A program made the translations under genes and the position numbers. Under the pieces are notes generated by a model, which saw nothing but the letters and a program-made list of their open reading frames with translations, was not told the DNA's origin and did not search any database. This document shows positions 4,970-36,424 of a stretch of DNA of 64,000 nt, in pieces. Within the stretch, counting starts at the first letter, position 1; every line of letters begins with the position of its first letter. Origin of the DNA: Haloterrigena salina JCM 13891 (lineage in GTDB: Archaea > Halobacteriota > Halobacteria > Halobacteriales > Natrialbaceae); assembly GCF_000337495.1 (NCBI RefSeq), contig NZ_AOIS01000067.1, positions 211,466 through 275,465 of the forward strand, given 5' to 3'.

Positions 4970-4994
4970 ATATCAGTTTGACCGCGCGATAGCT

Positions 4995-5400: not shown

Positions 5401-5795
5401 GAACGCCCGCTTGGTGCTGGCGTCGAGGATAGAGTTCCGTGCAGGCGGCAGTGAGACGACGACTTCGCTTCTATCAATAATTGGTATCGCCGCAGATCCG
5501 GGTGCGGTCCATGAGAATCAGATATCGTCCGAATCGCCCGAAACCGACCAACGAAGAACGATCTTATGGCGTAGATCGATGGTGATTTATCGTCATTAGA
5601 GAGGTTGGTCTCACAGAATTGCTTGAATTACTCGACGGCAATACAATATAACTAGTGGAGGTGGTTTAAGTGCTTTTCCAGCACGAGAGTTATGATTATT
5701 GATTAGCAAAACTATTTTGTCTCTTCAAGACTGGATCCAATTGGATACGAAACCGTTATCAGTCATACGACCCACTCTTCAGATGAGCGAATACT

Positions 5796-6707: not shown

Positions 6708-6768
6708 CCGGATTCGACTAGAACAACCGTAATAACGCTACAGCCGTAACCATAAACCACATCAACCA

Positions 6769-8199
6769 ATGAGTTCCGATCAAGACCACCTAAAAGAGAC
6801 AGACACTGAGGCCCGGTTCGAGTTCAAGAAAGAGGAGAACTCCGCCGTCAGATCCGGTAAAGGCCTAACTGAAGAGGTCATCCGCATGATCTCCGACGAC
6901 AAGGACGAGCCCGACTGGATGCTCGAGCGACGCCTCCGCGCGCTCGAGCAGTACCAGAACATGCCGATGCCGTCGGACTGGCCCGGCATGCCGGACCTCT
7001 CCGAACTGGACGTCGAAGAGATCATCCCCTACATCCGCCCGGACGTCGACAAGCGCGAAGGCGTCGACGACTGGACGGAGCTGCCCGACGACATCAAGGA
7101 CACGTTCGATAAGCTGGGCATTCCGGAGGCCGAGAAGAACGCCCTCTCGGGCGTCGGCGCCCAGTACGAGTCCGAGGTCGTCTACCAGAACATGCAAGAG
7201 CAGTGGGAGGAGAAGGGGGTCATCTTCTGTAACATGGACAAGGCCGTCCAGGACCACCCCGAGCTCGTCAAAGAGCACTTCATGACGACCTGCGTGCCGC
7301 CGAGCGACAACAAGTTCGCCGCGCTGCACGGGGCCGTCTGGTCCGGCGGCTCGTTCGTCTACGTCCCCGAGGACGTCACCGTCGAGATGCCGGTTCAGGC
7401 CTACTTCCGCATGAACTCGGAAGGGATGGGCCAGTTCGAGCACACGCTCATCATCGCCGAGGAAGGCTCCGAGGTCCACTACATCGAGGGCTGTTCGGCC
7501 CCGAAGTACGGGACCCACAACCTCCACTCGGGCGGCGTCGAGGTCTTCGTGGGCGAAGACGCCCACGTCCAGTACTCGACCGTCCAGAACTGGTCGAAGA
7601 ACACGTTCAACCTGAACACCAAGCGCGCCATCTGCGAGGAGAACGGCACGATGGAGTGGGTCTCGGGCAGCATGGGATCGAAAGTGACCATGCTCTACCC
7701 GTGTACGATCCTCAAGGGTCGCGGCTCGACGGACACCCACATTACCATCGCTCTGGCGGGCGAGGGTCAGGACATCGACACCGGTGCGAAGGTCTACCAC
7801 AACGCGCCCGAGACGAGTTCGACAATCGAGTCCAAGTCGATCGCCAAGGACGGCGGCCGTACCAACTACCGCGGTCTCGTCCACATCGCCGACGGTGCCG
7901 AGAACTCGAGCACCGCCGTCGAGTGTGACGCGCTGATGTTCGACAACGAGTCGACCTCGGACACCATGCCGTACATGGAGATCGAGGAGTCGAAGGTCGA
8001 CGTCGCACACGAGGCGACCGTCGGCAAGATCGGCGACGAGGACATCTTCTACCTCCAGTCGCGCGGACTGGACGACGACGACGCCAAGAAGATGATCGTC
8101 GCCGGCTTCATCGAGCCGATCACGGAGGAACTGCCGATCGAGTACGCGGTCGAACTCAACCGCCTCATCGAACTCGAGATGGAGGGGAGCCTCGGATAA
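6769..8199 (+). CDS. sufB: Fe-S cluster scaffold protein SufB
   Basis: A 476-residue member of the SufB/SufD beta-helix family. It has the SufB hallmarks: an N-terminal helical part (DEPDWMLERRLRALE), then FVYVPEDVTVEMPVQAYFR, EGCSAPKYGTHNLHSGGVEVFV and the C-terminal SRGLDDDDAKKMIVAGFIEPI. It starts 61 bp after sufC and ends one base before sufD begins, so the three are surely one transcript. SufB is the scaffold on which the cluster forms, as a complex with SufC and SufD. Confidence 0.96.
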   Translation: MSSDQDHLKETDTEARFEFKKEENSAVRSGKGLTEEVIRMISDDKDEPDWMLERRLRALEQYQNMPMPSDWPGMPDLSELDVEEIIPYIRPDVDKREGVDDWTELPDDIKDTFDKLGIPEAEKNALSGVGAQYESEVVYQNMQEQWEEKGVIFCNMDKAVQDHPELVKEHFMTTCVPPSDNKFAALHGAVWSGGSFVYVPEDVTVEMPVQAYFRMNSEGMGQFEHTLIIAEEGSEVHYIEGCSAPKYGTHNLHSGGVEVFVGEDAHVQYSTVQNWSKNTFNLNTKRAICEENGTMEWVSGSMGSKVTMLYPCTILKGRGSTDTHITIALAGEGQDIDTGAKVYHNAPETSSTIESKSIAKDGGRTNYRGLVHIADGAENSSTAVECDALMFDNESTSDTMPYMEIEESKVDVAHEATVGKIGDEDIFYLQSRGLDDDDAKKMIVAGFIEPITEELPIEYAVELNRLIELEMEGSLG

Positions 8200-8200
8200 T

Positions 8201-9421
8201 ATGAGCGCAGGAACACAGGTACACGCCAATCTGACCGAAGAACAGGTACGCGAAATCAGCGGCGACCTCGACGAGCCCGAGTGGCTCTTAGAGACCCGTC
8301 TCGAGGCCCTCGAGGCCCTCGACTCCCTCGACATGCCCGACGTCATCAAGACGCCGGGACGGGAGTGGACGAACCTCTACGAGCTGGACTTCGAGTCCCT
8401 CGTGGACCCGCTGAACGCGGCCGAGAATAAGGATCAGGTCGGTCCCGACGAGGCCAACGTCCTCTCGTGGGCCGACGCGGTCCAGGAACACGAGGAGCTC
8501 CTCAAGGAGCACTTCGGCAGCATCGTCGATCCCCAGGAAAACTACCTGACGGCGCTCTCGACGGCGCTCTTTAGCACCGGGACGGTCATCTACGTCCCCG
8601 AAGGCGTCGACGCCGAGGACGTCGCTATCCGAACCGAGCAGAACTCCCGCTCGCTGTTCAACTACACGCTCGTCGTCACCGAGGAGTCGTCCTCGGTCAC
8701 GATCCTCGAGCGACAGTCGACCGGCGAGGAAGCCGAGGAGCAGTACTACAGCGGCGTCGTCGAAGTCGCCGCCGGCGAGAACAGCTACGTCCAGTACGGC
8801 AGTCTCCAGAACCTCTCGGAGGAGGCCTACAACTTCACCGTCAAGCGCGGCGTCACCGACACCTACGCTACGATCGACTGGATCGAGGGCAATCTCGGCA
8901 CGCAGCTGACCAAGACCGAGGTCTCGACGGAGCTTCGCGGCGACTCCTCGGAGACGCAGATCGTCGGGGCCTTCTACGGCCACAACGATCAGCACTTCGA
9001 CCTCGATGCGAAGGTCTGGCATCGTGCGGAGCACACGACTGCAGACCTAATCACCCGCGGCGTCATCGACGACATCTCCCGATCGGTCTACGAGGGCGTC
9101 CAGGACGTCGGTGCCGACGCCTGGGACACGAGCTCCTACCAGCGCGAGAACACGCTGATGCTCAGCGACGAGAGCGAGGCCGACGCCTCCCCCCAGCTGA
9201 TCATCAACAACCACGACACCGAGGCCAGCCACTCCGCGACGGTCGGCCAGATCGACGCGGAGGACCTGTTCTACATGACCTCCCGCGGTGTCGATCCCCG
9301 CTCGGCTCGCAACATGCTCGTCGAGGGCTTCTTCGTGCCCGTCCTCGAGGAGATCGACGTCGACGAGCTCCGCGACGATCTCGAGGAACTGATCGGCGCG
9401 CGGCTCCGTCAACGCGACTAA
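8201..9421 (+). CDS. sufD: Fe-S cluster assembly protein SufD
   Basis: A 406-residue paralogue of SufB. The N-terminus repeats the family pattern (DEPEWLLETRLEALEAL). The beta-helix region contains YVPEGVDAEDVAIRTEQN, and the C-terminus has SHSATVGQIDAEDLFYMTSR followed by ARNMLVEGFFVPVLEEI. SufD forms a heterodimer with SufB and is needed for iron entry in the studied systems. The ATG lies one base after the sufB stop. A T-rich tract follows from 9441. Confidence 0.94.
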   Translation: MSAGTQVHANLTEEQVREISGDLDEPEWLLETRLEALEALDSLDMPDVIKTPGREWTNLYELDFESLVDPLNAAENKDQVGPDEANVLSWADAVQEHEELLKEHFGSIVDPQENYLTALSTALFSTGTVIYVPEGVDAEDVAIRTEQNSRSLFNYTLVVTEESSSVTILERQSTGEEAEEQYYSGVVEVAAGENSYVQYGSLQNLSEEAYNFTVKRGVTDTYATIDWIEGNLGTQLTKTEVSTELRGDSSETQIVGAFYGHNDQHFDLDAKVWHRAEHTTADLITRGVIDDISRSVYEGVQDVGADAWDTSSYQRENTLMLSDESEADASPQLIINNHDTEASHSATVGQIDAEDLFYMTSRGVDPRSARNMLVEGFFVPVLEEIDVDELRDDLEELIGARLRQRD

Positions 9422-9440
9422 CCGCCGGGCGATAGCGCGG

Positions 9441-9460
9441 TTTTTACGTTCTTTCGCTTT
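9441..9460 (+). terminator. T-rich terminator after sufD
   Basis: TTTTTACGTTCTTTCGCTTT begins 20 bp after the sufD stop. Archaeal transcription usually ends at such U-rich tracts without a strong hairpin. Confidence 0.5.
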
Positions 9461-9562
9461 CGTTCTGCTCTCGCCTCGAGCCGTCTCCGTGTTCTGTCGA
9501 CTGCGACCGTCCTCACGGCGTCTGACGAGCACTTTTATACGATGATCGGCAATCCGGGGACG

Positions 9563-10600
9563 ATGCAGGCCCTCTCCATCGAACTCGAGGACGAGACCGT
9601 CGACGCGCTCGAGGCCGAGCGGGAACTGTTCGGCTTCGAGAGTCGACAGGCGTACGTCCGGTGGATCGTCGAACACCGCGGCTCGATCGACGCCGGAGCG
9701 GGGCCTGACCGCGATCGGAAACGGGACCGCCTGCTGGCGGATCACCGCGAGCGCATCACCCGCCTCGAGGAGCGGGTGGCGACGCTCGCGCAGGCGGTCG
9801 AGAGCGACCGGGCGGACGGCGAGTCGCGAGCGGCCGACGACTCAGCGGCAAAGACTGCTGACGAGAGCGCCGAACGGACACCCGATGGGGACGAGACCGA
9901 GCCGGCCGACCGCGACCGACACCCCGACGGAACGCCGGTGAACCGCGAACCGGTGCTCGAAGTCCACGGTTCGCCCCGAACGGTCCGGCAGGGCCCCGAC
10001 TCGAGCGTCTCGACCGAATCGACGGACTCGACGGCTCGAGCGGAGCCAGCGGACGGTGAGGGGGACCCGAGTCCGACCACAAGCGAGACGACCGAAACTG
10101 AGTCAACCGGAGAGAAGCCCTCCGGCCTGTCGCCCGAACGCGTCGCGCGCATTCGCGAGGACCCCGTCCACGAGGACGCCGGCGTGCTCGGCTCCGTCGA
10201 GACCGAGCGACTCGACGAACTCTCCCGACGCGCGGTCGCGACCACGCGAAAGCGCCTGAACCGGGACGTCCAGACCGGCCTCGAGTACACGTCCTCGACC
10301 CGGCTGGCCGGCGACGGCGTCCGACCCGGGGAAGATATCACCGAGCTCGACGAACTGTCGATTCCGGGCCGATCCGCGGAGACGATCGAGAAGCGTCGCC
10401 GCGCCGTCGGACGGGCGCTGGCCTACCTGCGAGACGAGGACGAGGCGCGTCGCTCAGACTTCGTCGACGCGCTCTACGGGGAGTGTCCGGCCGGCTACGA
10501 CACGAGCGACGGCTGGTGGCGCTGTATCAAGACGGGGCTCAGACAGGTCGACGCCGTCGACGGCGGTGAGGGGGCGCGCGTCTGGCGGTATCGCGGCTGA
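9563..10600 (+). CDS. Haloarchaeal protein with N-terminal RHH-like/coiled-coil part and C-terminal WH-like domain
   Basis: A 345-residue protein. The TATA element TTTTATAC at 9533-9540 favours the ATG at 9563 over 9542. Residues 1-45 (MQALSIELEDETVDALEAER and RQAYVRWIVEHRG) resemble a ribbon-helix-helix-like or CopG-type module, followed by a coiled coil (ERITRLEERVATLAQAV). A roughly 120-residue acidic disordered linker follows. The C-terminal 130 residues are compact, with helices and ...DTSDGWWRCIKTGLRQV before VWRYRG, which looks like a winged-helix domain of the kind seen at the end of several haloarchaeal proteins. Probably DNA-associated; exact role unknown. Confidence 0.7.
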   Translation: MQALSIELEDETVDALEAERELFGFESRQAYVRWIVEHRGSIDAGAGPDRDRKRDRLLADHRERITRLEERVATLAQAVESDRADGESRAADDSAAKTADESAERTPDGDETEPADRDRHPDGTPVNREPVLEVHGSPRTVRQGPDSSVSTESTDSTARAEPADGEGDPSPTTSETTETESTGEKPSGLSPERVARIREDPVHEDAGVLGSVETERLDELSRRAVATTRKRLNRDVQTGLEYTSSTRLAGDGVRPGEDITELDELSIPGRSAETIEKRRRAVGRALAYLRDEDEARRSDFVDALYGECPAGYDTSDGWWRCIKTGLRQVDAVDGGEGARVWRYRG

Positions 10601-10609
10601 ACGGATCGC

Positions 10610-10713
10610 TCAGCGAAACCACTCGCTGTTGAGCCGTTCGTCGTCCCGATACCAGCGAGCGCGAGGTAACCGAATCCGAGGAAGACGGCGACCGCGACAA
10701 GGATTCCGATCAT
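10610..10713 (-). pseudogene. Small single-TM protein, apparently frameshifted
   Basis: From the ATG at 10713 the minus strand encodes MIGILVAVAVFLGFGYLALA, a clean membrane helix. The same frame then becomes unlike protein and runs into the neighbouring gene. Shifting by one base right after the helix gives RWYRDDERLNSEWFR and a stop at 10610, an ending typical of a small membrane protein. The 104-bp span is one base short of a whole number of codons. Either a real single-base deletion or a sequencing error would explain this. Function unknown. Confidence 0.4.
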
Positions 10714-10867
10714 TTTCGTGAAAGCTGTTCCAGAGGATACCTAAACCTATCATCGTTTGCGATCATCCATTCCCGCACGCGGGCGATCGTTTCCCGTCGC
10801 CCGATAGAGCCGATATCGAACCGCCCGAGTAGGGAGGGTTAAGTATCAGTGGCCCGGACGACCTGAT

Positions 10868-11362
10868 ATGAGTCTGGGACAGCGCGTCTCGAGCGACCAC
10901 CAGCTAGCCCGATTGCTGCAGATCGGGGTCGTGCTGGAGGAGGTCGTCGAGTCACGCGCCGCCCACCACCTCGACTCGCTGCCCCCCGAAGAGCGAGCGG
11001 CGATCGACGAGGAGGTGCGGGAGTTGCTCGAGGAGGCCGCCGACGAGTCGGCCGACCACCGCGAGCGGCTCGAGGCGCTGATCGACGATCTCGAGGCCGA
11101 CACCGTCGCGTACGAGGAAATCAACGCGTTGGTCGACGCCCAGTACGGACCCCCGGAGGACACCGACGGCGTCCTCTACGACCAACTGGCGAACGAGGAA
11201 ACGGCCTACAAGTTCTACGACGACCTGATCGACGCGATCGAGGCCTCCGAGAGCGAGTTCGCCATCGACCGCGAGCGCCTCCTCGAGACCCTCTACGAGA
11301 TCCGCGAAGAGGAGAAAGACGGCGTCGAAGAAGTGACCGAGATCATGGAGCACAGAGCATGA
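10868..11362 (+). CDS. Ferritin-like four-helix protein
   Basis: A 164-residue, strongly acidic, all-helical protein. Carboxylate-rich helices contain VVLEEVVESRAAHHL, ADHRERLEALI, NEETAYKFYDDLI and YEIREEEKDGVEEV, arranged like the metal-binding helices of rubrerythrin or ferritin-like proteins. A likely TATA element (GGTTAAGTATC, about 10837-10847) gives a leaderless start at 10868. It is followed after 121 bp by the SirR-type metal regulator, so a role in iron storage or iron-linked redox protection fits. The ligand set is inferred from pattern, not from a structure. Confidence 0.75.
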   Translation: MSLGQRVSSDHQLARLLQIGVVLEEVVESRAAHHLDSLPPEERAAIDEEVRELLEEAADESADHRERLEALIDDLEADTVAYEEINALVDAQYGPPEDTDGVLYDQLANEETAYKFYDDLIDAIEASESEFAIDRERLLETLYEIREEEKDGVEEVTEIMEHRA

Positions 11363-11483
11363 TCGGGACGGCGGCAGTACGGTCCCCCGCAGATCGAACG
11401 CCGTCACTGCGCATCGAGTCCCGGACGCGGGGACGCCGGCGAGGAATCGACGCGACACCGAGCGACACCGACGGAGGGATGCA

Positions 11484-11915
11484 ATGAACACTGCAGACCA
11501 ATATCTCAAGGCGATCTATCTGGCTCAACGCATCGAGGACGGCCCCGCATCGACCGGCACGCTCGCGGACTTGCTCGAGGTCAGTCCGGCCAGCGTCAAC
11601 GAGATGATCGGCAAACTCGAGGACCGGGGACTCGTCGACCACGAGAAGTACAAGGGGGCGAGTCTGACCGACGAGGGACTCGGGCGCGCCCACGACGCCC
11701 TCCAGACCTACTGTATCATCGAACGCTTTCTCGCGAACGTCCTCGAGGTCGAGGAGTACCAGGACGAGGCCCGCGCCCTAGAGAGCGTCATCGACGATAC
11801 CGTCGCGGAGCGCCTCGACACGATCATCGACCGGCCGGGCGAGTGTCCTGACTGTTTCGACCCCGAACGGGACGCCTGCGAGCGACTCGAGGTCGGCGAC
11901 GGCTGTGCGGACTGA
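11484..11915 (+). CDS. sirR: SirR/DtxR-family metal-dependent transcriptional regulator
   Basis: A 143-residue regulator. Residues 1-65 form the winged helix (DQYLKAIYLAQRI, LADLLEVSPASVNEMIGKLE, GLVDHEKYKGASLT). The metal-binding dimerisation part follows, with CIIERFLANVLEVEEYQDEA and ESVIDDTVAERLD; these carry the Cys/Glu/His-type ligand positions of DtxR, although some of the usual histidines appear changed. The Cys-rich C-terminal tail (GECPDCFDPERDACERL) is common in haloarchaeal SirR. A GGAGGG ribosome binding site sits just upstream. Members repress iron or manganese uptake genes; the iron boxes at 56485-56533 are likely targets. Confidence 0.9.
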   Translation: MNTADQYLKAIYLAQRIEDGPASTGTLADLLEVSPASVNEMIGKLEDRGLVDHEKYKGASLTDEGLGRAHDALQTYCIIERFLANVLEVEEYQDEARALESVIDDTVAERLDTIIDRPGECPDCFDPERDACERLEVGDGCAD

Positions 11916-11972
11916 GGTAGATCGACTCGTTTTCGCGGCCGGAATTCGGATAGCAGCTGCACGACGCGATTC

Positions 11973-13814
11973 TCACTGTGGCTCTCCGAACCGAACGTAC
12001 CGACGCCCGACCAGCGCCGCGAGGGCGAGCGCGGCGATGACGGCGAGTGCGACACCCACGGTGAGCCTCGACCGACTACTGTCTCCTTGCCAGTCGGCCT
12101 CGAACACGTCGGCGTAGTAGCTCGCGACCTCCTGGCCGTGGAGCGCCAGTACGACCTCGCGATTGTTCCGGAAGGAGTTCTCGTTCCAGTTGGCGCTGCC
12201 GACGACCGCGACCTCGCGGTCGATCACGACGCCCTTGGCGTGAATCTTCTCGAAGGCGTCCGTCTCCTCGACCAGTTCGACCTCGAGCGGGAGCGACTCG
12301 TCGTCGGCGAGTCGCTCTACGTCCCGCGCCAATGCCGCGTTCTCGTCGGCGTTGTACTCTGCCGATCCGAGCAGGATACGGACGTCGACGCCGCGGCGGG
12401 CGGCCTCGAGGGTCGACTCGAGCAAGGACACGTCGTCGGCGATAGACGGCTGCAGGACGAGGATCTCGTCGTCGGCGCTCTCGAGCAACGAGTTGAGACG
12501 GCGTTCGGCGTTGTCCGGTGCGAGCAGGAGTTCGGCGGACTCGACGGGGACCGTCGACGGGTCGTGGGCCGTCGGGTACTCGGGATCGGGCGAGGAAAAG
12601 ACGGGGCCGTCGTCCACGAACGAAGCGTTCCTGCGATAGGCCGCTCCCGAGGCCGTATCGCGACCCTCGAAGTCCGCGTCGAAGACGGTCGCGAGATCGG
12701 CCGCGAGGGACTCGGACTCGAGGCGCACGCCCCAGCCGCGGCTGCTCTCGCCGCCGACGCCCGACGGCTTCCAGTTCTCGGTCGTGACCAGCACGCGGTC
12801 GTCGGCCACCGCGTATTTGGGGTGGTGATAGCGGTACCGCGAGTCTGCGCCCCCGATGACGCGAACGTCGACCCCGCCGTCGACGAGCGTCTCGAGGACG
12901 CTCTCGGTCGCCGCGGGCGCGCCGCCGACGGGGCTCGATTCAAAGAGCACCGCGACGTCGACTCCGCGGTCGGCCGCGGCGACGAGTTCGTCGGCGACCG
13001 CCTCGGACGTAAACGTGTAGCCGGCCAGCAGCAGGCGGTCGTCGGCGCCACGGAGCGTCTCGAGGGGCACCGCGGGCGAGTCGGGGAGGACGAACGCCGT
13101 GGCGTCCGCGACGTCGGCCGTCGAGACCGGGAGGCAGGTCGCGTCGCGGGGATGCCAGTCGCCGGCTGCGGGGTCGCCGGCGGTCGGCTCGTCGGTCTCG
13201 CCGCCGTTGCGGTACCACCGTTCCGCCGTCGGCGCTCGATCGTACGCGACCGCGTCGACGGTCGTCGTCTCGTTCCGGAGCTCCAGGGTGTCTCCGTCGA
13301 CGGCGAGTCGCAGCGTCCCCTCGAGTTCGACCACCGGGTACTCGGTCAGTCCGCCGGTGACGTTCGGCGCCGTGCTCGCGGCGACGCGGCCGGTGACGGT
13401 CTCGTTCGGGAGTTCAGCCGTGGTATGGCCGTCGGTAAGCGTCCAGTTCTCGAATCGGGTCTCCGGGGGAACCTCGAGGACGAGATACTCGCCGACGTTG
13501 TCGCGAATCGTGGGATTCGGGTAGAGTTCGACGATCCGGGGCGCGGTACCGGTCGCGTTCGCCGGTCGCTCGCCGGCGTCGGGGACCGACCCGTTGCCAT
13601 CGGTTAGCTCGTCCGACGAGGGCGTCGATTCCATCGCACCGATCGGACACGCGGGGCTGGTCCCGTCGCCGTTAGCGTCGGCTCGAGACGCCACGTCGCC
13701 GGGAGCTCCGTCGCTCGTCGCGGTGTTGACGGCGACGATTCCGAACCCCAACAGGGTGCCGGCGGCGAGGCTGACGCTCACGAGCGCGACGAGGACCGCG
13801 CGTCGGTACTCCAT
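11973..13814 (-). CDS. Secreted, membrane-anchored phospholipase D-family protein with lamin-tail domain
   Basis: A 613-residue extracellular protein. Residues 5-32 form a signal or anchor helix. Residues of about 85-225 look like a lamin-tail domain (EYLVLEVP, NWTLTDG, TLELRNETT). Two PLD catalytic repeats follow: HHPKYAVADDRVLVTTENW and HAKGVVIDREVAVVGSANWN, each giving the HxK(x)nD pattern. A C-terminal helix (VGVALAVIAALALAALVG) ends RRYVRF. Members of this family are nucleases or phosphodiesterases. The pairing with a lamin-tail domain suggests action on extracellular DNA or cell surface. A minus-strand TATA (TTTATATCC, 13837-13845) gives a leaderless start. Confidence 0.88.
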   Translation of the reverse strand: MEYRRAVLVALVSVSLAAGTLLGFGIVAVNTATSDGAPGDVASRADANGDGTSPACPIGAMESTPSSDELTDGNGSVPDAGERPANATGTAPRIVELYPNPTIRDNVGEYLVLEVPPETRFENWTLTDGHTTAELPNETVTGRVAASTAPNVTGGLTEYPVVELEGTLRLAVDGDTLELRNETTTVDAVAYDRAPTAERWYRNGGETDEPTAGDPAAGDWHPRDATCLPVSTADVADATAFVLPDSPAVPLETLRGADDRLLLAGYTFTSEAVADELVAAADRGVDVAVLFESSPVGGAPAATESVLETLVDGGVDVRVIGGADSRYRYHHPKYAVADDRVLVTTENWKPSGVGGESSRGWGVRLESESLAADLATVFDADFEGRDTASGAAYRRNASFVDDGPVFSSPDPEYPTAHDPSTVPVESAELLLAPDNAERRLNSLLESADDEILVLQPSIADDVSLLESTLEAARRGVDVRILLGSAEYNADENAALARDVERLADDESLPLEVELVEETDAFEKIHAKGVVIDREVAVVGSANWNENSFRNNREVVLALHGQEVASYYADVFEADWQGDSSRSRLTVGVALAVIAALALAALVGRRYVRFGEPQ

Positions 13815-13919
13815 CGGGCGCTCTGGCCGCGCGTTCGGATATAAAGGTCAGGTCGAAAACGGAGTGCGAGATTCAGAAGGGAAGGGGAGGAAATCGGGTC
13901 GGTCCCGTTCGCGTCGCGT

Positions 13920-15266
13920 TCAGGCTGCGGGTTCGGTCGCGGCCTTCTCGGCCTCGGCCTGGACGAGATACGCGCGGTCGTCCCCGTAGTCGGCGACGAT
14001 CTCGAGGGCCTCGGTGGTGCCGATCTGGTTTAACGCCCAGGCAGCGCTGGCGCGGACGCGGTCCTGTTCGTCGTCGGCCAGCACGTCCGCGAGCGGCTCG
14101 ACGGCGCGGGTGTCACCGATCAGGCCGAGCGCGCGTGCGGCCCAGCTGCGGACGTCCGGCTCATCGGCGACCAGCTGCTGGGCGATCGGCTCGACGGCGT
14201 CCTCGGCGCCGATCTCGCCGAGCGCGCGGAACGCGGGTCGCTGGAGGTTAGGGTTCGAGTCGACGTAGTCGACCAGCGCCTCGACGACCTCGTCGTCGGC
14301 GATCCCGATCTTGCCCAGGATGCGCATCGCGGCCTGGTCGCGGCGGCCCGCCTTCTGGATCATGGGTTCCATGGCCTCCTCGGGACCCATGCGTTCTAAG
14401 GCCTCGAGGCAGTGTTCCTCCATGTAATCGGAGTCGAAGGTCTCGTAGGCAAGCAGGATCATGTCGACGTTGCCGCGCTTCTCGTGGACCTTCAGGGCGT
14501 GCCACTCCGGCGGGAAGTCCTTGACGTGGTCGAGCACGTCGTAGAACCCTTCGCGGCGCAGTTGCTCGCGGATCTCGAGGTCGGTCCACTCGGTCGCGTC
14601 GTCGATGTCGGCCTCGAGGTCGTCCGTGGCCTCGAGCAGGCCGGCGATCGTCTCGGCGTCGTCGTCGGCGTCGAGTTCGGCGTCCTCGACGGCCGCGGCC
14701 GCCGCGTCGAGGGTCGCGTCTAACTGCTCCGGAACGTCCTCGCCCTCGTTGCTCAGGGTGAGCGACGTGCCGAGCAGATCGTTGACCTCGTCGAGGAAGT
14801 CGTCGACGGCCTCGATCAGTTCGGCGTTGCCCTCCTCGGTCCAGCGGGTGCCCGTGATCGTCCCGCTGGCGCCGTTGATGTCGCTGACGACGTCCTCGCC
14901 GTAGGGACCGCGCTGGTCCTCCAGATCTGACTCGAGATCAGAGACGTCGCTCTCGATGTCGTCGTAGCGCTCCTGGAGTTGCTCCTCGGGCGCGGGTTCG
15001 GCGTCCTCGTCCTCGTCTTCGTCCTCCTCGGTTTCCGGCGGATCGGGGATCTCGATCTCCTCGAACTCCTCGCGGAAGGACTCGATGTCGGCCTCGACGA
15101 CGTCGAGATCGTCCTCGGTCTCGGCGGCCTCGAGCTCGCTCTCGAGGGCTTCGACGTCGTCCTCGAAGGCCGCGAGCGCCTCGCGGATCGCCTCGAGATC
15201 GACCGGTTCGGACTCCTCCTCGGCCGGTTCGTCCGCTCCGTCCTCGGCTGCCTCGTCATCGCTCAT
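13920..15266 (-). CDS. HEAT-repeat protein with long acidic coiled-coil N-terminus
   Basis: A 448-residue protein. Residues 1-120 are highly acidic and coiled-coil-like (EALAAFEDDVEALESELEAA). A middle helical part of about 130 residues follows. From about residue 260 there are HEAT or PBS-lyase-type repeats: DQAAMRILGKIGIADDEVVEALVDYV, RPAFRALGEIGAEDAVEPIAQQLV, SWAARALGLIGDTRAVEPLADVL and ASAAWALNQIGTTEALEIV. Such repeats form a solenoid used for protein binding. No catalytic residues are visible. It stands alone; the partner is unknown. Confidence 0.88.
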   Translation of the reverse strand: MSDDEAAEDGADEPAEEESEPVDLEAIREALAAFEDDVEALESELEAAETEDDLDVVEADIESFREEFEEIEIPDPPETEEDEDEDEDAEPAPEEQLQERYDDIESDVSDLESDLEDQRGPYGEDVVSDINGASGTITGTRWTEEGNAELIEAVDDFLDEVNDLLGTSLTLSNEGEDVPEQLDATLDAAAAAVEDAELDADDDAETIAGLLEATDDLEADIDDATEWTDLEIREQLRREGFYDVLDHVKDFPPEWHALKVHEKRGNVDMILLAYETFDSDYMEEHCLEALERMGPEEAMEPMIQKAGRRDQAAMRILGKIGIADDEVVEALVDYVDSNPNLQRPAFRALGEIGAEDAVEPIAQQLVADEPDVRSWAARALGLIGDTRAVEPLADVLADDEQDRVRASAAWALNQIGTTEALEIVADYGDDRAYLVQAEAEKAATEPAA

Positions 15267-26260: not shown

Positions 26261-27508
26261 ATGGCCGCTGTCCCCGCGTCGGTCGAGATCCTCGCCGAGC
26301 CGTCGCTGACGCTGGGACTGCTCGCGTGGCTCCTGGCCGGCGCGGCGCTGGGCTGCTGTAGCGGGCTCGTCCCGGGACTCCACGCGAACAACTTCGCCCT
26401 CCTGCTCGCCGGCTTCGCGCCGTCGATCCCCGGCCGGCCGCTGTTCGTCGGCTGCGCGATGCTCGCGGCCGGCGTCGTCCACACGTTCGTCAACGCCGTT
26501 CCCGCGATGGCGCTCGGGGTGCCCGACGCCGAGATGGCCGTCACCGCGCTGCCGGGCCACCGGCTGGTCCTCGAGGGCCGGGGCTACGAGGCGATCCGGC
26601 TCTCGGCGCTGGGCAGTCTGCTCGCGGTCCTCGCGGCGGTTCCGCTCGCCGTCCCGGTCACGCGGGGCGTGACGGCCGCGTATCCGGCGATCCGGACCCA
26701 CCTCTCAGTCGTGCTGGCGATGGTCGTCGTCGCGCTGATCGCGTCGGAACGGACGTGGTGGACCCGCCTCGGCGGCCTCGTTTCGTTCGCGCTCGCCGCG
26801 ACGCTCGGCGTGCTGACGCTCGATCTCGCGACGGACGCGCCCCTCGAGGCCGGCGGGATGCTCGCGCCGCTGTTCGCGGGCCTGTTCGGCGCGCCGGTGT
26901 TGATCGACGCGATCCGCGGCGGCGGGGTGCCGCCACAGCGCGACGAGTCGATCGCGATGTCCCGACCGCTCGTCGGCGGGACGGCCATCGCCGGGGCGCT
27001 GGCGGGCGCCGTGGTCGGCTACGTTCCGGGCATCTCGGCGGCGATCGCCGCCGTCGCGGTCCTGGTGGTCGTCCCGGGACGATCCGGCGACCGCGGCTAC
27101 ATCGTCGCGACGAGCGGCGTCGACACGGCGAATACGATTTTCGCGCTGTTCGCCCTGGTCGCCATCGGCCAGCCTCGGACCGGCGTGATGGTCGCTTTCG
27201 ACGCCGTAAACGCGCCCCTCGAGTTGCCGGTCCTGGTCGCTGGAATCGTCCTCGCCGGCTGCGTCGGCTTCGTCCTCGTGATCGTCGTCGGGGACGCCTA
27301 TCTCGACCTCGTCGGTCGGACGGACTACTGGAAGATTTCGGTCGCCGTCCTCGCGCTCCTGTGCTGTCTCTCCTATCTCTTTACGGGGCTCGTCGGTGTC
27401 AGCGTCTTCGCTGTCGCGACCGCGGTCGGACTGGTTCCGATTCGCGTCGGCGCCCGCCGCGTCCACCTGATGGGCGTGCTGATCGGCCCGCTGATCGTCG
27501 GCGCGTGA
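26261..27508 (+). CDS. TctA-like tricarboxylate transporter permease (DUF112 family)
   Basis: A 415-residue protein with about ten TM helices. It has two inverted halves each starting with a Gly/Pro-rich re-entrant motif: GCCSGLVPGLHANNFALL near residue 30 and VVGYVPGISAAIAAVAVLV near 250, as in TctA. No TctB or TctC partner is present. A TTTATCC TATA element at about 26231 gives a leaderless start. The substrate may be an organic acid, and the next genes handle a lactone and a hydroxy acid, but this link is inference. Confidence 0.8.
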   Translation: MAAVPASVEILAEPSLTLGLLAWLLAGAALGCCSGLVPGLHANNFALLLAGFAPSIPGRPLFVGCAMLAAGVVHTFVNAVPAMALGVPDAEMAVTALPGHRLVLEGRGYEAIRLSALGSLLAVLAAVPLAVPVTRGVTAAYPAIRTHLSVVLAMVVVALIASERTWWTRLGGLVSFALAATLGVLTLDLATDAPLEAGGMLAPLFAGLFGAPVLIDAIRGGGVPPQRDESIAMSRPLVGGTAIAGALAGAVVGYVPGISAAIAAVAVLVVVPGRSGDRGYIVATSGVDTANTIFALFALVAIGQPRTGVMVAFDAVNAPLELPVLVAGIVLAGCVGFVLVIVVGDAYLDLVGRTDYWKISVAVLALLCCLSYLFTGLVGVSVFAVATAVGLVPIRVGARRVHLMGVLIGPLIVGA

Positions 27509-27603
27509 CCGCCGCGGCAAAAGTGCTCGCCACCATCTCTGGGTGTGATCCTCACGCAAACGTTTTTTCGCGGAATCAGTGTAGGAACTCGCAGTGTCTT
27601 CAA

Positions 27604-28410
27604 ATGGTTGACGCGACCGTCGACGTGATCCACCGGGGTGGTCTCGAGTGCGACCAGAACTACATGATCGAGGGCCAGACCCTCGGAACTCGCGACGAGC
27701 CGAATCCGGACCTCGATTACGAGGAGATCCCGGTCTGGAACCTCGTCATCGACCACCCCGAGGCGACGATCCTCTGGGACACGGGCTCTCACCACGAGGC
27801 CCTCGAGGGCCACTGGCCGGAGGCGCTCTCGCAGGCGTTCTACCCGCACGACGCCCACGAGCATCGGCTCGACGACGACCTCGAGGCAGCGGGGTACCGC
27901 CTCGACGACATCGATGCGGTGTTCCAGACGCACCTGCACCTCGACCACGCCGGCGGACTCGAGTTCTTCGACGGAACGGACGTCCCGATCTACGTCCACG
28001 AACGAGAACTCAAGTTCGCCTACTACAGCGCGAAGACCGACAAGGGCAGCGGCGCGTACGTCCTCGAGGACTTCGATCACGACCTGAACTGGGAGGTCGT
28101 CCACCGCGACCGCGAGGTGCATTTCACGGACGTCGAGTTCGTCCGGTTCCCCGGCCACACGCCCGGGTTGACGGGCACGGTGATCCACCTCGACGACGAC
28201 GGGACACTCGTCTTCACCGGCGATCAGGTCTATCAGGCGCCGAACTACGAGGCGGAGGAACCGCTCGGCGCGAGCCTGCTCTGGGGGAAAACCGAGTGGT
28301 TCGACAGCCTCCAGCGGATCAAGGAACTCGAGCGCCGCCACGACGCCGAGGTCGTCTACGGCCACGACACCGAGCAGTTCTCCGAGATCGAAGACGGGTG
28401 GGGGAACTGA
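27604..28410 (+). CDS. N-acyl-homoserine-lactonase-family metallo-hydrolase
   Basis: A 268-residue MBL-fold lactonase. The metal site is QTHLHLDHAGG (HxHxDH), with further His in FPGHTPGLTG and Asp in FTGDQVY. Length and motif layout match AHL lactonase or BlcC (AttM) gamma-butyrolactonase. Its stop overlaps the start of the iron alcohol dehydrogenase (ATGA), so the two are translationally coupled. A lactonase followed by an oxidase of the hydroxy acid is the order of gamma-butyrolactone breakdown. Substrate is inferred; quorum quenching is the alternative. Confidence 0.85.
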   Translation: MVDATVDVIHRGGLECDQNYMIEGQTLGTRDEPNPDLDYEEIPVWNLVIDHPEATILWDTGSHHEALEGHWPEALSQAFYPHDAHEHRLDDDLEAAGYRLDDIDAVFQTHLHLDHAGGLEFFDGTDVPIYVHERELKFAYYSAKTDKGSGAYVLEDFDHDLNWEVVHRDREVHFTDVEFVRFPGHTPGLTGTVIHLDDDGTLVFTGDQVYQAPNYEAEEPLGASLLWGKTEWFDSLQRIKELERRHDAEVVYGHDTEQFSEIEDGWGN

Positions 28411-29732
28411 TGTCGGGCTACGACCGCTCCGTGTCGGCGCCAGAGCACGACCTCGGGCCGGAGACGGTCTGGCACCTCCAGATGCCCCAGATCCGGTTCG
28501 GCCGCAACGCGGTCGAAGAGTTGGGCTTTCAGCTCGCCGATCTGGGTGTCGACGCCGCGGACGACCCGCACGGTCTCGTCGTCACCGACGAGACGCTCGC
28601 GGACATCGGCCACGTCGACCGCGTCACGGACCACCTCGAGGACGCAGGCTACGACGTCACCGTCTGGGATGGCGCCGAACGCGAGCCGTCGATCGAGAAC
28701 GTCGACCGCTGCATCGAGTTCGTCCGCGCGAACGAGGGCGAGGCGGGCTACGACTTCTACGTCGGCTTCGGCGGCGGCAGTTGCATCGACGTCGCGAAGG
28801 CCACCCGCGCGGTGATCGCCAACGGCGGGCAGGTACTCGACTACATCGCGGAGCCGACCGGCGCGGGCGAGTCGCTCACCGAGTCGGGCCCGCCGCTGGT
28901 ACTCATGCCGACGACTGCCGGGACCGGCGCCGAGATTTCGCCGGTCGCCATCCTCTCGGTCGAGGAGCAGGATATCAAGGAGGGGATCTCGAGCAACCAC
29001 ATCCGTGCCGACGCGGCCGTACTCGATCCGACGTTCACGACGACGCTCCCGCCCGAGACGACGGGGAAGACGGCGATGGACGCGCTCGGCCACGCCATCG
29101 AGGGGTACACGACCCATCCGTTCGACGGCCTCCTGCGGGCGTCGGATCCGGAGACCCGACCCGTCTACGCCGGTCGGACGGAACTCACCGAGATGTTCTC
29201 CGAGAAGGCCATTCAGTTGCTCTCGAGCAACGTCCGGACCGCGGTCCACAACGGCGACGACCTCGAGGCGCGGGCGGCGATGCTCAAGGGCGCCCTCTTC
29301 GGCGCCATCGCCGGGCTCACGGCGGGCGCGAGCCTCTGTCACGCGATGGCCTACCCCGTCGGGAACCGGTATCACACCTACCACGGCGAGACGATCGCGG
29401 TCCTCACGCCCGCGAGCACGCTGGGGTACAACGTCGCTAGCGACCCCGAGCGGTTCGTTCGCGTCGCGGAGATGCTGGGCGCCGACACCGACGGGCTCGG
29501 GACTCGGGAAGCCGCCGACCGCGCTCGAGCGGAGTACGTCCGCCTCCAGCGGGACCTGAACGTGGTCCCCAGCGGACTGAACGAACTCGCCGGCGTCACC
29601 GAGGAGGACGTCGACTGGCTCGCGAGCCAGACCGTCGAGACCCAGCAGCGGCTGCTGCGCTGTAACCCGCGACCGGTGACGGAAGCCGACGCGGCGGAAA
29701 TTTTCCGGGACGCACTGTACAACTGGGAGTAG
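28410..29732 (+). CDS. Iron-containing alcohol dehydrogenase, hydroxyacid-oxoacid-transhydrogenase-like
   Basis: A 440-residue group III Fe-ADH. Nucleotide-binding FYVGFGGGSCIDVAKATRAV and PTTAGTGAEISPVAIL are present. Metal-ligand regions are MDALGHAIEGYTTHPFD and SLCHAMAYPVGNRYHTYHGE. The length and the R/Y-rich insert resemble ADHFE1-type enzymes, which move hydride from 4-hydroxybutyrate to 2-oxoglutarate. It overlaps the lactonase stop by one base. Together they would turn a gamma-lactone into a semialdehyde. Substrate not proven. Confidence 0.87.
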   Translation: MSGYDRSVSAPEHDLGPETVWHLQMPQIRFGRNAVEELGFQLADLGVDAADDPHGLVVTDETLADIGHVDRVTDHLEDAGYDVTVWDGAEREPSIENVDRCIEFVRANEGEAGYDFYVGFGGGSCIDVAKATRAVIANGGQVLDYIAEPTGAGESLTESGPPLVLMPTTAGTGAEISPVAILSVEEQDIKEGISSNHIRADAAVLDPTFTTTLPPETTGKTAMDALGHAIEGYTTHPFDGLLRASDPETRPVYAGRTELTEMFSEKAIQLLSSNVRTAVHNGDDLEARAAMLKGALFGAIAGLTAGASLCHAMAYPVGNRYHTYHGETIAVLTPASTLGYNVASDPERFVRVAEMLGADTDGLGTREAADRARAEYVRLQRDLNVVPSGLNELAGVTEEDVDWLASQTVETQQRLLRCNPRPVTEADAAEIFRDALYNWE

Positions 29733-32268: not shown

Positions 32269-33645
32269 CTACGCCGGATCGTAGGTGGTCGTCTCGTAGA
32301 GGAACGACGCGAGGTACGTCTCGTGGGTCTCCCGGAGGTCGACGCTCGCGGGATAGCCGCCGCCGTAGACCTTTCTGAACGCGGGCGAACGAACCAGCCG
32401 TCGCTCGAGGTCGTCGTCGCCGATCGCGACCGCGAGGTAGGCGCCCTCGAGGCAGTCCGGAAGCGCCGACCGCGCGCGTTCGGTCACGCCGACGAACGGG
32501 AACGGGAACTCGGGCACGAGTTCGTCGGTTCGGAGGACTGTCGGTAGCAGTCGGGCGGCGCCGTCTCGCTCGACGAGGCGCGTCTCGCGGTCGGCCGCGG
32601 TGACGTCACTTCCGTCGATGGCCGCGATCGCGTCGTCGATTCTGACGGCCGCCTCGCGATCGACGAACGCGGGAACGTCGGTGCGCTCGTCGTGAAGCGG
32701 GCCCGCGTCGGCACCGGCCAGCCGATCCGCCACTCCCTCGGCGAGGGCGTCGGGATCGCAGTCCCCGGTCGCGACGATCCGGGTGAGGTTGAAGCAGGCC
32801 CGTCCGCCGGCGCGGCGGACGCCGCGGGCCAGCGTGTCCAGTTCCCGATCCGTCGGGTCGCGGCCGAGGACCGCGACGCTCTCCCCGGGTCCGTAGGTCT
32901 CGACGGCGTGATCGTCGCGAAACGGCGCGACCGCCTCCGCGCCGCCGAACGCGAGGGCGTGGTCGGCCTCCCGGCAGATCGTCTCGCCGACGGCCCGATC
33001 CCCCGGCAGGACGTGGACCGCCGACGGCGGGATCCCGGCGGCGAGCAGCGCTCGAGCCAGCCGGATCGCGGTGAACGGCTCCCGGTCCGAGGGGCGGAGG
33101 ACGATCGGAATCCGCATCCCGATCGCCAGCGCCGGCCACGCGTAGACGGTGGGGTCGTTGGCCGGCATCGACGCGCCGAGGACCCGCACTCGAGGGGTGA
33201 ACGCGAGTCCCACGGTCGTCTCCCGCGTGTAGGTCGGGTCGTCGTAGACGTCGAGCTCGCCGGTCGGCGACTGCGCCCGGAGCGACTCGGCGGCGTGTCG
33301 GAGCCCGACGGCGAGCCAGTGGGCGCTGGTTCGGACCCAGCCGGCCGGCAGCCCAGTCGCCTCGGTGACGCGTCGGCGGTACGTCTCGAACGGCTCGAGC
33401 GGATCGGCGCCGGCTGACGGAGCGCCCTCACCGAGGAACAGCGCGCCCGCGGTCGCGAGGCGATCGAGCAGTTCCGCGATCGGGACGTCAGCGAGTGCGT
33501 CGAACCCCTCCTCTCGAGCGGTCGAGAGCGCGTCGCGGACGCGGACGGTCGGCGCTCGCGCCGCCTCGGCGACGGGACCGTCGATCCCCTCGACCGTCGT
33601 CGACCGGACCGTCTCCCGCTCGCCGTCGGAGACGACCGGGAGCAC
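32269..33645 (-). CDS. LuxC-like acyl-CoA/acyl-protein reductase (aldehyde dehydrogenase fold)
   Basis: A 458-residue protein. The GTG at 33645 begins one base after the LuxE-like stop, so 33675 (inside that gene) is not needed. Features of the LuxC and aldehyde-dehydrogenase fold: GASMPANDPTVYAWPALA, IPIVLRPSDREPFTA, LPGDRAVG and the catalytic-Cys region GGRACFNLTRI. The family reduces an acyl thioester, made by LuxE, to an aldehyde with NADPH. LuxD, the acyl transferase, is absent. Substrate unknown. Confidence 0.8.
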   Translation of the reverse strand: MLPVVSDGERETVRSTTVEGIDGPVAEAARAPTVRVRDALSTAREEGFDALADVPIAELLDRLATAGALFLGEGAPSAGADPLEPFETYRRRVTEATGLPAGWVRTSAHWLAVGLRHAAESLRAQSPTGELDVYDDPTYTRETTVGLAFTPRVRVLGASMPANDPTVYAWPALAIGMRIPIVLRPSDREPFTAIRLARALLAAGIPPSAVHVLPGDRAVGETICREADHALAFGGAEAVAPFRDDHAVETYGPGESVAVLGRDPTDRELDTLARGVRRAGGRACFNLTRIVATGDCDPDALAEGVADRLAGADAGPLHDERTDVPAFVDREAAVRIDDAIAAIDGSDVTAADRETRLVERDGAARLLPTVLRTDELVPEFPFPFVGVTERARSALPDCLEGAYLAVAIGDDDLERRLVRSPAFRKVYGGGYPASVDLRETHETYLASFLYETTTYDPA

Positions 33646-33646
33646 G

Positions 33647-34732
33647 TCAGTACACCCCTTCGACGGCGTCCTCACTCGCCCGGTCGCTCGTGCCCGGCGT
33701 GCGGACCCAGTCCCACGGCAGGTCGCCCGCCCCTTCGATCCGGATCGCCGCGTCGCGCTCCGGCAGCAGCGGGAGGAAGAACTCCTCCGTCAGGACGGTG
33801 AGTCGCACCGTTCCCCGCTCGCCGTAGGGGACGACCTCGCCGTCGTCGTCGACGATTTCCGGGACGAAATACGGGTAGCAGGGGACGTAATCGAGGTGGT
33901 ACGCCCGCTCGGACGGCGACCGGAGCGACGGCGGCGCTTCCGGGGCGACGCCCATCAGCGTGTTGCCGTACTCCCCGGCGAGGGCGACGTCCGCGTACCA
34001 CTCCTCGCGGAAGACGCGGTGGGTGTCCCGGTCGAGCGCGGTGCCGCCGTGGACGATCCCCTCGATCGAGGAGTCGGCGACGAGGTCTCGAACACGTGGC
34101 CGCTCGAGCAGGCGCGCCGTCGTGAACAACACCGCGATCGGCTGACTCTCGAGGACGCGCTCGGCTTGCTCGAGGAGGTGGTCGACGTACTCGTCGAACT
34201 CGCGGTCGTCGGGTCGCTCGGAGAGGCGCTTGGCCCACCGGGGGTCCATCGTCACGTGGTACGGCAGCGCGTCCCACTCGTGGGCGAGGTGCTGGACGAA
34301 CGTGCCGGCGTTGTTCGCGCCGCCCGGCGGAGCCAGTCCGAGGACGTTTCCGGTCGGGAACTCCCACTCCGCCAGCAGTCGGGCCGTCCAGCGGGCCTGT
34401 TCGCGCCAGTACTCGCGCATGACGACTCGCTTCGGCGCGCCGGTCGTCCCGCCGGTCTCGTAGACGCGCCGATCGCCGTCGAGCGACTGCGGCGCGAACT
34501 CCGCGGCGGAGAGCGTTCGGAGGACGTCCTGGTCGAACGGGTCGAAGACGTCCCGGAGGTCCGCGAACGAGTCGACTCGCTCGCGAACGTCGATCCCGCG
34601 GTCGTCCTGCCACTCGAGCCAGTAGGGGGTGCCGCCGTCGGGATCGAAGTGGGTCGCGACCACGGTTTCGACCCACTCGTCGAGCGTGGCGTCGGTCGGT
34701 GCGTGCGGGTTCGTGTACGTCGTCTCCATCAT
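33647..34732 (-). CDS. LuxE-like acyl-protein synthetase (AMP-binding family)
   Basis: A 361-residue ATP-dependent acid-activating protein. The phosphate-binding loop is YETGGTTGAPKRVV. It also has VLGLAPPGGANNAGTFVQHLAH, LFTTARLLERP and GIVHGGTALDRDT, and AGEYGNTLMGVAPE, which are LuxE/acyl-protein-synthetase-like rather than full-length acyl-CoA synthetase. It is short, lacking the large C-terminal cap domain of most ANL enzymes. It is tightly linked to the LuxC-like gene and lies 40 bp after the symporter. LuxE and LuxC together reduce carboxylic acids to aldehydes. Confidence 0.8.
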   Translation of the reverse strand: MMETTYTNPHAPTDATLDEWVETVVATHFDPDGGTPYWLEWQDDRGIDVRERVDSFADLRDVFDPFDQDVLRTLSAAEFAPQSLDGDRRVYETGGTTGAPKRVVMREYWREQARWTARLLAEWEFPTGNVLGLAPPGGANNAGTFVQHLAHEWDALPYHVTMDPRWAKRLSERPDDREFDEYVDHLLEQAERVLESQPIAVLFTTARLLERPRVRDLVADSSIEGIVHGGTALDRDTHRVFREEWYADVALAGEYGNTLMGVAPEAPPSLRSPSERAYHLDYVPCYPYFVPEIVDDDGEVVPYGERGTVRLTVLTEEFFLPLLPERDAAIRIEGAGDLPWDWVRTPGTSDRASEDAVEGVY

Positions 34733-34772
34733 GATGGTGAGTGTGATCGTCTGTTCGTGACGTGGGGTGGAA

Positions 34773-36212
34773 TCAGGACCTGTTCGCCTCTACGAGCGCG
34801 GTCGTCTTCGACTGCCCCGAAAGCAGCGATCCGACGGCAAGGGCGCCGCAGGCGACGAGCAGCGCGGGGACGAACGGGAGGAACGCGAACGACGGCGCGG
34901 GGCCGAACTCCGCCGCGACGAAGTACGCCTGACCGCAACACACCGACGCCAGCGCGCCCCACGCGGAGGCCCGCCGCCAGTACAGCGCGCCGAGGAACGC
35001 CGGGAGCAACAGCGCGTTCCCCTGGATGAAGTAGACCGCGAGGTCGATGATCGTCCCCTGCTGGACGAGCGCGATCGCAAGCCCGAAGCCTAACAGGACG
35101 ACCGCGGTCAGCCGGCCGACCCACGTCTCCCTGCCGCTGCTCGCGTCCGGGTTCAGGTGAGCGCGATACAGGTCCCGGGAGACGATCGACGACAGCGTGA
35201 GCACGAGGCTGTCGGCCGTGCTCATCATCGCCGCGAGCGCGCCGCCCATGACGACGCCGAAGATCCACGGCGGCGCGTGCGCCGACAGCAGCGCCGGCAG
35301 GATCGCGTCCGGGTCCTCGAGGCCGGGCATCGTCGCGGCGCCCCACACGCCGAGGAGGACGGGGACGAGTGCCGCGACGACGACCATCACGGGCCACCAG
35401 ACGAGCAGCGACCGGAACGCGCGCTCGTCCTCCGCGGCGAGGAACCGCTGGAACATCTGCGGGTAGGCGATCATCGCCATCGCGTTCATCAACAGGAACG
35501 AGAGCCACACGCCGGGGGTGAAGAAGCCGAGTTCGCCCGCCGGCGTCAGCAGCTCGGTCTCGCTGGCCAGCTCCGCCGTCACCGCGGCGGGCTCGAGCGC
35601 GGGGAGCAGGTAACCGATCGCGCCGCCGAGGAGGACGACGACCGCGATACCCTGCAGGACGTCGGACCAGGCGACGCTCCGAAGGCCGCCGAGCGTGAGG
35701 TAGATCCCGGTGACGACGGTGAGCAAGACCGCGCCCTGCGTGAACGTGATCGCGCCGTCGGTGATGGACTCGAACAGCAGGCCGCCGCCAATCGCCTGGA
35801 TCGCGAGGTACGGAATCGCCCAGACGAACTGCGCGACGAGGACCGCCAGCTTCACCGCGTCGCTGTCGTAGGCCGCGCCGATCAGTTCCGTCGGCGTGAG
35901 AAAGCCCCGATCGCGGCCGACCCGCCACACCCGGAGGCCGATCAGCGCGAGCGGGATCCCGGCGACCGCCTCGACGCCGAGGAGCGCGAACCACCCCATC
36001 CCGTGCTGGTATCCCCAGCCGGCGCTCCCGAGGAAGATGAAGGCGCTCATCAGCGTCGCGAACATCGTCAGCGGAAAGACGACCCGTCCGAGGGTTCCCC
36101 CCGCGAGGAAGTACTCGGCCGGCGTCGTCCCCGTCCGGACGTATCCGTACCAGCCGATCATCAGCGTCGCGACCAGATAGAGGCCGACGATGGCGAGGAC
36201 CGTTCCGTTCAT
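34773..36212 (-). CDS. Sodium:solute symporter (SSS/SLC5 family)
   Basis: A 479-residue transporter with about 13 TM helices. SSS hallmarks are YVRTGTTPAEYFLAGGTLGRVVFPLTMFATLMSAF near the N-terminus, the central VWAIPYLAIQAIGGGLLFE, and GGALAAMMSTADSLVLTLSSIVSRDLY, the classic sodium-site region. It begins four bases inside the preceding small gene (ATGA overlap) and is followed by the LuxE-like gene, so it probably imports that pathway's carboxylate substrate. Specificity cannot be read from sequence. Confidence 0.92.
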   Translation of the reverse strand: MNGTVLAIVGLYLVATLMIGWYGYVRTGTTPAEYFLAGGTLGRVVFPLTMFATLMSAFIFLGSAGWGYQHGMGWFALLGVEAVAGIPLALIGLRVWRVGRDRGFLTPTELIGAAYDSDAVKLAVLVAQFVWAIPYLAIQAIGGGLLFESITDGAITFTQGAVLLTVVTGIYLTLGGLRSVAWSDVLQGIAVVVLLGGAIGYLLPALEPAAVTAELASETELLTPAGELGFFTPGVWLSFLLMNAMAMIAYPQMFQRFLAAEDERAFRSLLVWWPVMVVVAALVPVLLGVWGAATMPGLEDPDAILPALLSAHAPPWIFGVVMGGALAAMMSTADSLVLTLSSIVSRDLYRAHLNPDASSGRETWVGRLTAVVLLGFGLAIALVQQGTIIDLAVYFIQGNALLLPAFLGALYWRRASAWGALASVCCGQAYFVAAEFGPAPSFAFLPFVPALLVACGALAVGSLLSGQSKTTALVEANRS

Positions 36213-36424
36213 CGTCCCTCACTCGGCCAGCCGTAGCCGATCCCCGCGATCGCGGCGACGACGACGGTCGCGAGCATCGCGAGCAGCGCCACCGTCGACC
36301 AGAGCGGAAACACGCCGACGATCGGTTCGACGGGCGCGTACACCGACGCGGCCATCACCGCAAACAGTCCGCCGAAGACGATCCAGAGACCGCGCTCGAG
36401 GCGGCCGTCAGCCGAAGTTCTCAT
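36209..36424 (-). CDS. Small two-TM subunit preceding the symporter (DUF3311-like)
   Basis: A 71-residue protein starting MRTSADGRLERGLW. Two hydrophobic helices (WIVFGGLFAVMAASVYA and STVALLAMLATVVVAAIAGI) flank EPIVGVFPLWS. Many SSS symporters are coded next to such small membrane partners. Its TGA overlaps the symporter ATG. GGTTATACAAT near 36433-36442 on the minus strand is a promoter candidate, though close to the ATG. The family name is a guess. Confidence 0.75.
   Translation of the reverse strand: MRTSADGRLERGLWIVFGGLFAVMAASVYAPVEPIVGVFPLWSTVALLAMLATVVVAAIAGIGYGWPSEGR

Follow-up and report, generated by a model that had tools for sequence, protein, structure and literature searches.

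The window that we analysed is a stretch of 64,000 nucleotides on contig 67 of the 4.84 Mb genome of the haloarchaeon Haloterrigena salina JCM 13891. It contains four tightly packed genes on the minus strand that an initial annotation had described, all of which we found at the positions listed in Table 1 with the same overlap and gaps. The SDR gene noted as converging on this cluster is also present. The automatic open reading frame call placed the start of the reductase gene at 33675, which is an upstream GTG, whereas a start at 33645 matches the tight packing first described. An Rfam scan and a tRNA scan gave no matches.

Table 1. Genes of the cassette, with positions numbered from the first letter of the window
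Feature	Position	Strand	Remarks
Small membrane protein gene, 71 aa	36209-36424	-	First of four minus-strand genes
SSS symporter gene, 479 aa	34773-36212	-	4-base overlap (ATGA) with the small membrane protein gene
EhpF/GriC-type acid-adenylating protein gene, 361 aa (predicted)	33647-34732	-	40-base gap after the symporter gene
EhpG/GriD-type reductase gene, 458 aa, GTG start (predicted)	32269-33645	-	1-base gap after the adenylating-protein gene
Classical SDR gene, 247 aa	31510-32253	+	Converges on the reductase gene; stop codons 15 bases apart

The adenylating protein and the reductase

The third and fourth genes had initially been named LuxE-like and LuxC-like, that is, an acid-activating protein and a Cys-dependent reductase. 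These two readings were supported by homology of the first protein to EhpF and by an ALDH fold with a catalytic Cys in the second. The adenylating protein had no Pfam match at the default limit. Using phmmer, it matched EhpF (3l2k/3hgu) with an E value of 5e-38 over residues 18-342, nearly its full length. The five best PDB matches of its AlphaFold model (pLDDT 81) were EhpF entries (3hgv, 3hgu and 3l2k; TM scores 0.73-0.75), and next in rank came ligases, PaaK-type and others, of which several act on aryl acids. The protein has the EhpF fold in one domain of approximately 360 amino acids. The motifs GG[TS]TGxPK and YGN[TS] and the residues D327 and R331 are conserved among 39 relatives. This homology, together with the conserved motifs and the fold, predicts that the protein adenylates an acid at the expense of ATP. 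Homologues carry the annotation "arylcarboxylate reductase".

At its C-terminus the adenylating protein ends in -EGVY (33647-33661). A G[VLI]Y-stop tail was found in 92 of 92 sequences, including that of the window, with -[EV]GVY at all 80 bacterial loci and -G[VLI]Y in all 12 further sequences, the window among them. Confidence in this tail in the AlphaFold model is very low (pLDDT approximately 27-31), as in disordered ends. A tail that is conserved yet apparently disordered suggests a docking or hand-over element directed towards the reductase partner.

The reductase matched Pfam Aldedh with an E value of 1.7e-12 and its model (pLDDT 85) has an ALDH fold, with a Z score of approximately 33 to ALDHs. 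It is 29% identical to Pantoea EhpG over 429 columns, and its gene directly follows the ehpF-like gene, as it does in all nine haloarchaea with the pair. In a profile alignment to ALDHs from the same genome, Cys284 aligned with the catalytic Cys and Tyr251 with the general-base Glu. The catalytic Cys was found in 35 of 35 relatives and the general-base Glu in none; the residue at that position, in the (E)LGGKS motif, was His in 31, Arg in three and Tyr in one. An ordinary hydrolytic aldehyde dehydrogenase was rejected on these counts. Without this Glu the thioester hydrolysis of ordinary ALDHs would not be possible, which would favour reduction, and we predict from the residues observed that the protein forms an aldehyde with NAD(P)H. 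Both the catalytic Cys and the AMP-binding residues of the partner, on whose presence in homologues the initial reading had been made to depend, are conserved.

A second reading is conceivable, as CoA-acylating ALDH-fold enzymes also do not hydrolyse the thioester. The reductase protein could be an acyltransferase that passes the acyl group of acyl-AMP via Cys284 to CoA or another acceptor, with the imported acid being activated for breakdown and the SDR acting later. Its weak similarity to the methylmalonate-semialdehyde dehydrogenase models of NCBIfam is in keeping with this. We nonetheless think an acyltransferase quite improbable, as the pair that has been characterised, GriC/GriD, reportedly functions as a carboxylic acid reductase and ordinary CoA ligases would suffice without a second protein.

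The names LuxE and LuxC did not hold up. A genuine LuxE/LuxC system, which reduces fatty acids to long-chain aldehydes, would follow the same logic of activation, Cys acylation and reduction, and the reductase does match the LuxC profile (PF05893) weakly. However, this match has 15.5 bits against a cut-off of 21, no Pfam LuxE match was listed at E values up to 10, and the homology of the adenylating protein to EhpF covers nearly its full length. In LuxE a C-terminal Cys bears the acyl group, whereas the sole Cys of the adenylating protein is residue 285 of 361, with none near the C-terminus. We therefore rejected LuxE/LuxC membership on the profile scores and the Cys position, and it would be very surprising if the pair were such an enzyme. 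The exclusion of bioluminescence stands, there being no LuxD and no luciferase. Judged by sequence and modelled structure, the pair is of the EhpF/EhpG and GriC/GriD type of two-protein carboxylate reductase.

The symporter and the small membrane protein

The symporter matched Pfam SSF along the whole profile (1-406 of 406) with an E value of 2.6e-40 and 139 bits against a cut-off of 22.8, and it carries an MSTADS signature near residue 331. Its nearest NCBIfam model, PanF, scored 189 bits, below the cut-off of 328. NCBIfam and the PDB offered only distant matches, too remote to assign a substrate. Given its place in the cassette, the symporter would import a carboxylic acid.

The small membrane protein has two helices, and its gene lies upstream of the symporter gene in the haloarchaeal cassettes checked. 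The protein of the window had no DUF3311 match and no significant Pfam match, and is DUF3311-like in position and shape only. A bacterial counterpart at the same position (L047) matched DUF3311 with an E value of 2e-6 and 28.3 bits, the cut-off being 30. In Sinorhizobium, a DUF3311 gene beside that of the pyruvate symporter MctP is dependent on the same two-component system (PMC9100948). The small membrane protein is likely to be a partner of the symporter.

Distribution of the cassette in haloarchaea

We surveyed 391 genomes of the haloarchaeal class with E value cut-offs of 1e-10 for the adenylating protein and 1e-20 for the reductase. EhpF-like and EhpG-like genes occurred in exactly the same nine genomes. 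In eight of these, from four genera and three families, the pair is accompanied by the symporter and the convergent SDR. The two enzyme genes lie together wherever they occur, and just one of the nine pairs, described below, lacks the symporter and the SDR. The eight cassettes occupy different chromosomal and plasmid sites, including plasmid 2 of Halalkalicoccus jeotgali and a site in a Halomarina. The adenylating protein and the reductase are 64-99% identical in the seven other haloarchaea with symporter and SDR and the flanks differ outside the genus, arguing that the cassette is not a chance arrangement.

Outside the genus the cassettes share no further neighbours. In two genomes of the same genus that lack the pair (G197 and G255), the neighbouring BtpA and OYE genes are separated by only approximately 0.4 and 0.5 kb, and G197 has continuous sequence across the site with no cassette. 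Together with the lack of shared flanks, this close spacing means that the cassette behaves as a discrete unit that is gained or lost.

Genes for a TctA-type permease, a metallo-hydrolase-like protein and an iron alcohol dehydrogenase are found at 26261-29732 of the window. In G197 and in the cassette-bearing G181, TctA adjoins BtpA without the latter two genes, indicating that the site gains and loses genes. The iron alcohol dehydrogenase (approximately 28.4-29.7 kb of the window) was considered as a cassette member and rejected, as it is absent between TctA and BtpA in G181. BluB was rejected likewise, as neither the G181 neighbourhood nor the cassettes outside the genus gave a match to it. 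In another haloarchaeal locus (L017 of G029, 926-14984), tripartite tricarboxylate transporter genes flank the cassette on both sides, and the region also encodes an amidase and another SSS symporter.

In the ninth genome (G301) the pair is divergent (27-36% identity) and has no adjoining symporter or SDR. This second type of pair lies at 9782-12289 of locus L021 beside AMP-ligase, PLP decarboxylase and ABC-transporter genes, a region that may be an archaeal biosynthetic cluster. Such surroundings, and the fact that the characterised relatives act in natural-product pathways, would fit an alternative in which the pair reduces an acid made in the cell for a secondary metabolite, in the style of phenazine or grixazone, and the symporter is co-transcribed incidentally. 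We regard this as unlikely. Eight haloarchaea keep symporter, pair and SDR with no other neighbour in common outside the genus, and the annotated surroundings of the Halalkalicoccus cassette showed no genes of the phenazine, polyketide or NRPS kind. None of the natural-product clusters that we looked at, in which the acid is made in the cell, has an annotated SSS symporter, and the G301 pair stands among biosynthesis-type genes with neither symporter nor SDR; this contrast fits import by the cassette.

One match came from an archaeal metagenome-assembled genome of another class (G618, L134), but its short locus showed no partner gene, and the match was left out. Among the papers searched, none described an archaeal pair of the EhpF/EhpG type. 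The suggestion of an undescribed archaeal pathway needs to be divided: the archaeal host and the joining of symporter and SDR with the pair as one unit are new, whereas the enzyme step itself is known from the EhpF/EhpG and GriC/GriD pairs of bacteria.

Related operons in bacteria

A scan of genome contigs returned more than 550 relatives of the adenylating protein, and the counts given here are from the best 80 loci. These came from Verrucomicrobiota, Planctomycetota, Kiritimatiellota, Poribacteria, Calditrichota, Acidobacteriota, Streptomyces and others. An EhpG gene lay within 5 kb downstream of the EhpF-like gene at 64 of the 71 loci with room for one. At 29 of 74 loci with room, a same-strand SSS symporter gene was directly upstream of the EhpF-like gene, a further point against incidental co-transcription. 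An iron alcohol dehydrogenase gene came directly after EhpG at 29 of 56 loci with room, which speaks against the acyltransferase alternative. The third step thus seems to be taken by two unrelated enzymes, an SDR in haloarchaea and an iron alcohol dehydrogenase in bacteria, supporting aldehyde reduction as the last step. The SDR keeps its place across the cassette genomes (58-97% identity), and from this conserved position and the bacterial parallel it is likely to be the aldehyde reductase of the cassette.

The haloarchaeal group formed a long branch beside the bacterial operon group in the tree (support 86/87). The symporters of the bacterial operons are scarcely closer to the haloarchaeal symporter than is a paralogue from the same haloarchaeal genome, and the gene order common to both groups may therefore have evolved on more than one occasion. 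Orthology of the haloarchaeal and bacterial operon symporters was not supported, the two being too distant and their direct comparison ambiguous.

Several other arrangements were seen in bacteria. Long conserved clusters in Verrucomicrobiota and relatives (L096, L076, L098, L093, L065 and L048) contain, in order, two PQQ-type propeller proteins, the symporter, the EhpF-like and EhpG-like proteins, an iron alcohol dehydrogenase, another propeller, a HemN-like radical SAM protein, a protein with no Pfam match, a halogenase-like flavoprotein and a glycosyltransferase. This looks like an undescribed metabolic or biosynthetic cluster. Poribacteria loci (L091, L077, L095 and L060) have three propellers, an EhpF-like protein, a weak Vgb-lyase match, an EhpG-like protein and, judged by the start of its sequence only, a sulfatase-like protein, with no symporter. 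In Streptomyces sp. NBC_00998 (L103, 3851-5955), the EhpG-like gene overlaps an SDR gene whose product is 38% identical to the SDR of the window, and an EhpF-like gene is nearby.

A proposed function for the cassette

We propose that the SSS symporter, with its small membrane partner, would bring a carboxylic acid into the cell together with Na+. The EhpF/GriC-like protein, an adenylate-forming enzyme that has a single domain and lacks the usual C-terminal one, would convert the acid and ATP to acyl-AMP. The acyl group would then pass to Cys284 of the EhpG/GriD-like protein, which would reduce the resulting thioester with NAD(P)H to an aldehyde, and the convergent SDR would take the aldehyde to an alcohol. 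We consider it probable that the cassette is an import-and-reduce module working in these steps, and the succession of import, adenylation, reduction and aldehyde reduction is well supported as a module. The likeliest substrate is an aromatic or ring acid, by analogy with the grixazone and griseoluteic acid pathways, which involve aryl acids.

Several observations weigh against this function. Reducing an imported acid consumes both ATP and reductant, and we saw no downstream use for the alcohol. The pair shares only approximately 30% identity with the characterised enzymes, no characterised family is close to the symporter, and the SDR resembles FabG, whose class acts mostly on ketones. The haloarchaeal branch also joins the bacterial ones via long branches.

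A wider reading, which we offer tentatively, is that haloarchaea and bacteria of the Verrucomicrobiota/Planctomycetota type may share an undescribed and widespread route that joins Na+-dependent acid import to a two-protein ATP-dependent reductase and a dedicated aldehyde reductase. The haloarchaeal pair would then be the first such reductase from archaea, and the GVY tail its docking or hand-over element. The occurrence of similar operons in both archaea and bacteria points to an acid in the environment that many microbes of marine and hypersaline habitats take up for reduction alone, which is unusual and testable. Biocatalysis seeks ATP-dependent reduction of free carboxylic acids to aldehydes, and two-protein enzymes from haloarchaea that tolerate salt would be of use for this. 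The conserved tail offers a well-defined starting point for studying how an activated acid is handed over in two-protein reductases.

Comparison with known systems

The operons of the Verrucomicrobiota/Planctomycetota type share with the haloarchaeal cassette the order symporter, EhpF-like and EhpG-like gene, with a DUF3311-like small membrane protein gene first in some and an alcohol dehydrogenase gene last in many. They differ in having an iron alcohol dehydrogenase instead of the SDR and in their flanking PQQ-type propeller proteins, and are themselves uncharacterised.

The EhpF/EhpG system of Pantoea (Enterobacter) agglomerans resembles the cassette in the homology of both proteins (approximately 31% and 29%), the gene order and tight packing, the EhpF fold, the -EGVY tail and the presence of an SDR in the gene cluster. 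Touching ehpF-ehpG genes in the same order occur in Pantoea, Burkholderia and Streptomyces, and such a pair is also found in Proteus (PMC11278526). Griseoluteic acid of Pantoea has a hydroxymethyl group and is derived from phenazine dicarboxylate (PMC3175449). Its synthesis therefore has to include the reduction of a carboxylate, a step that we infer to be that of EhpF/EhpG from their homology, the order of the genes and the chemistry of the pathway. In Pantoea, however, the acid is made in the cell from chorismate and an MFS exporter is encoded, whereas the haloarchaeal operon is led by the small membrane protein and the sodium symporter, and its SDR is convergent and only distantly similar.

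For grixazone, a published account (PMC10179220, citing Suzuki 2007) gives GriC as making the acyl-AMP and GriD as reducing it to the aldehyde, and reports the two as a carboxylic acid reductase. Close relatives of the pair occur in four Streptomyces genomes with a GriH-type DHQS-II gene within approximately 12 kb; these pairs are therefore probably GriC/GriD or close kin. GriC/GriD of Streptomyces griseus is therefore likened to the haloarchaeal pair by its published function, one protein adenylating and the other reducing, and by these Streptomyces kin; it differs in belonging to bacterial secondary metabolism.

LuxE/LuxC share the use of acyl-AMP, a Cys-bound acyl group and reduction with NADPH. 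The haloarchaeal proteins belong to different sequence families and occur without LuxD or luciferase and without a C-terminal acyl-carrying Cys. The single-chain carboxylic acid reductases (CAR) likewise convert an acid to an aldehyde with ATP and NADPH. CAR is a single A-T-R protein that has a phosphopantetheine arm and whose reductase domain is of the SDR type, whereas the haloarchaeal system is made up of two separate proteins with an ALDH-type reductase and no carrier domain.
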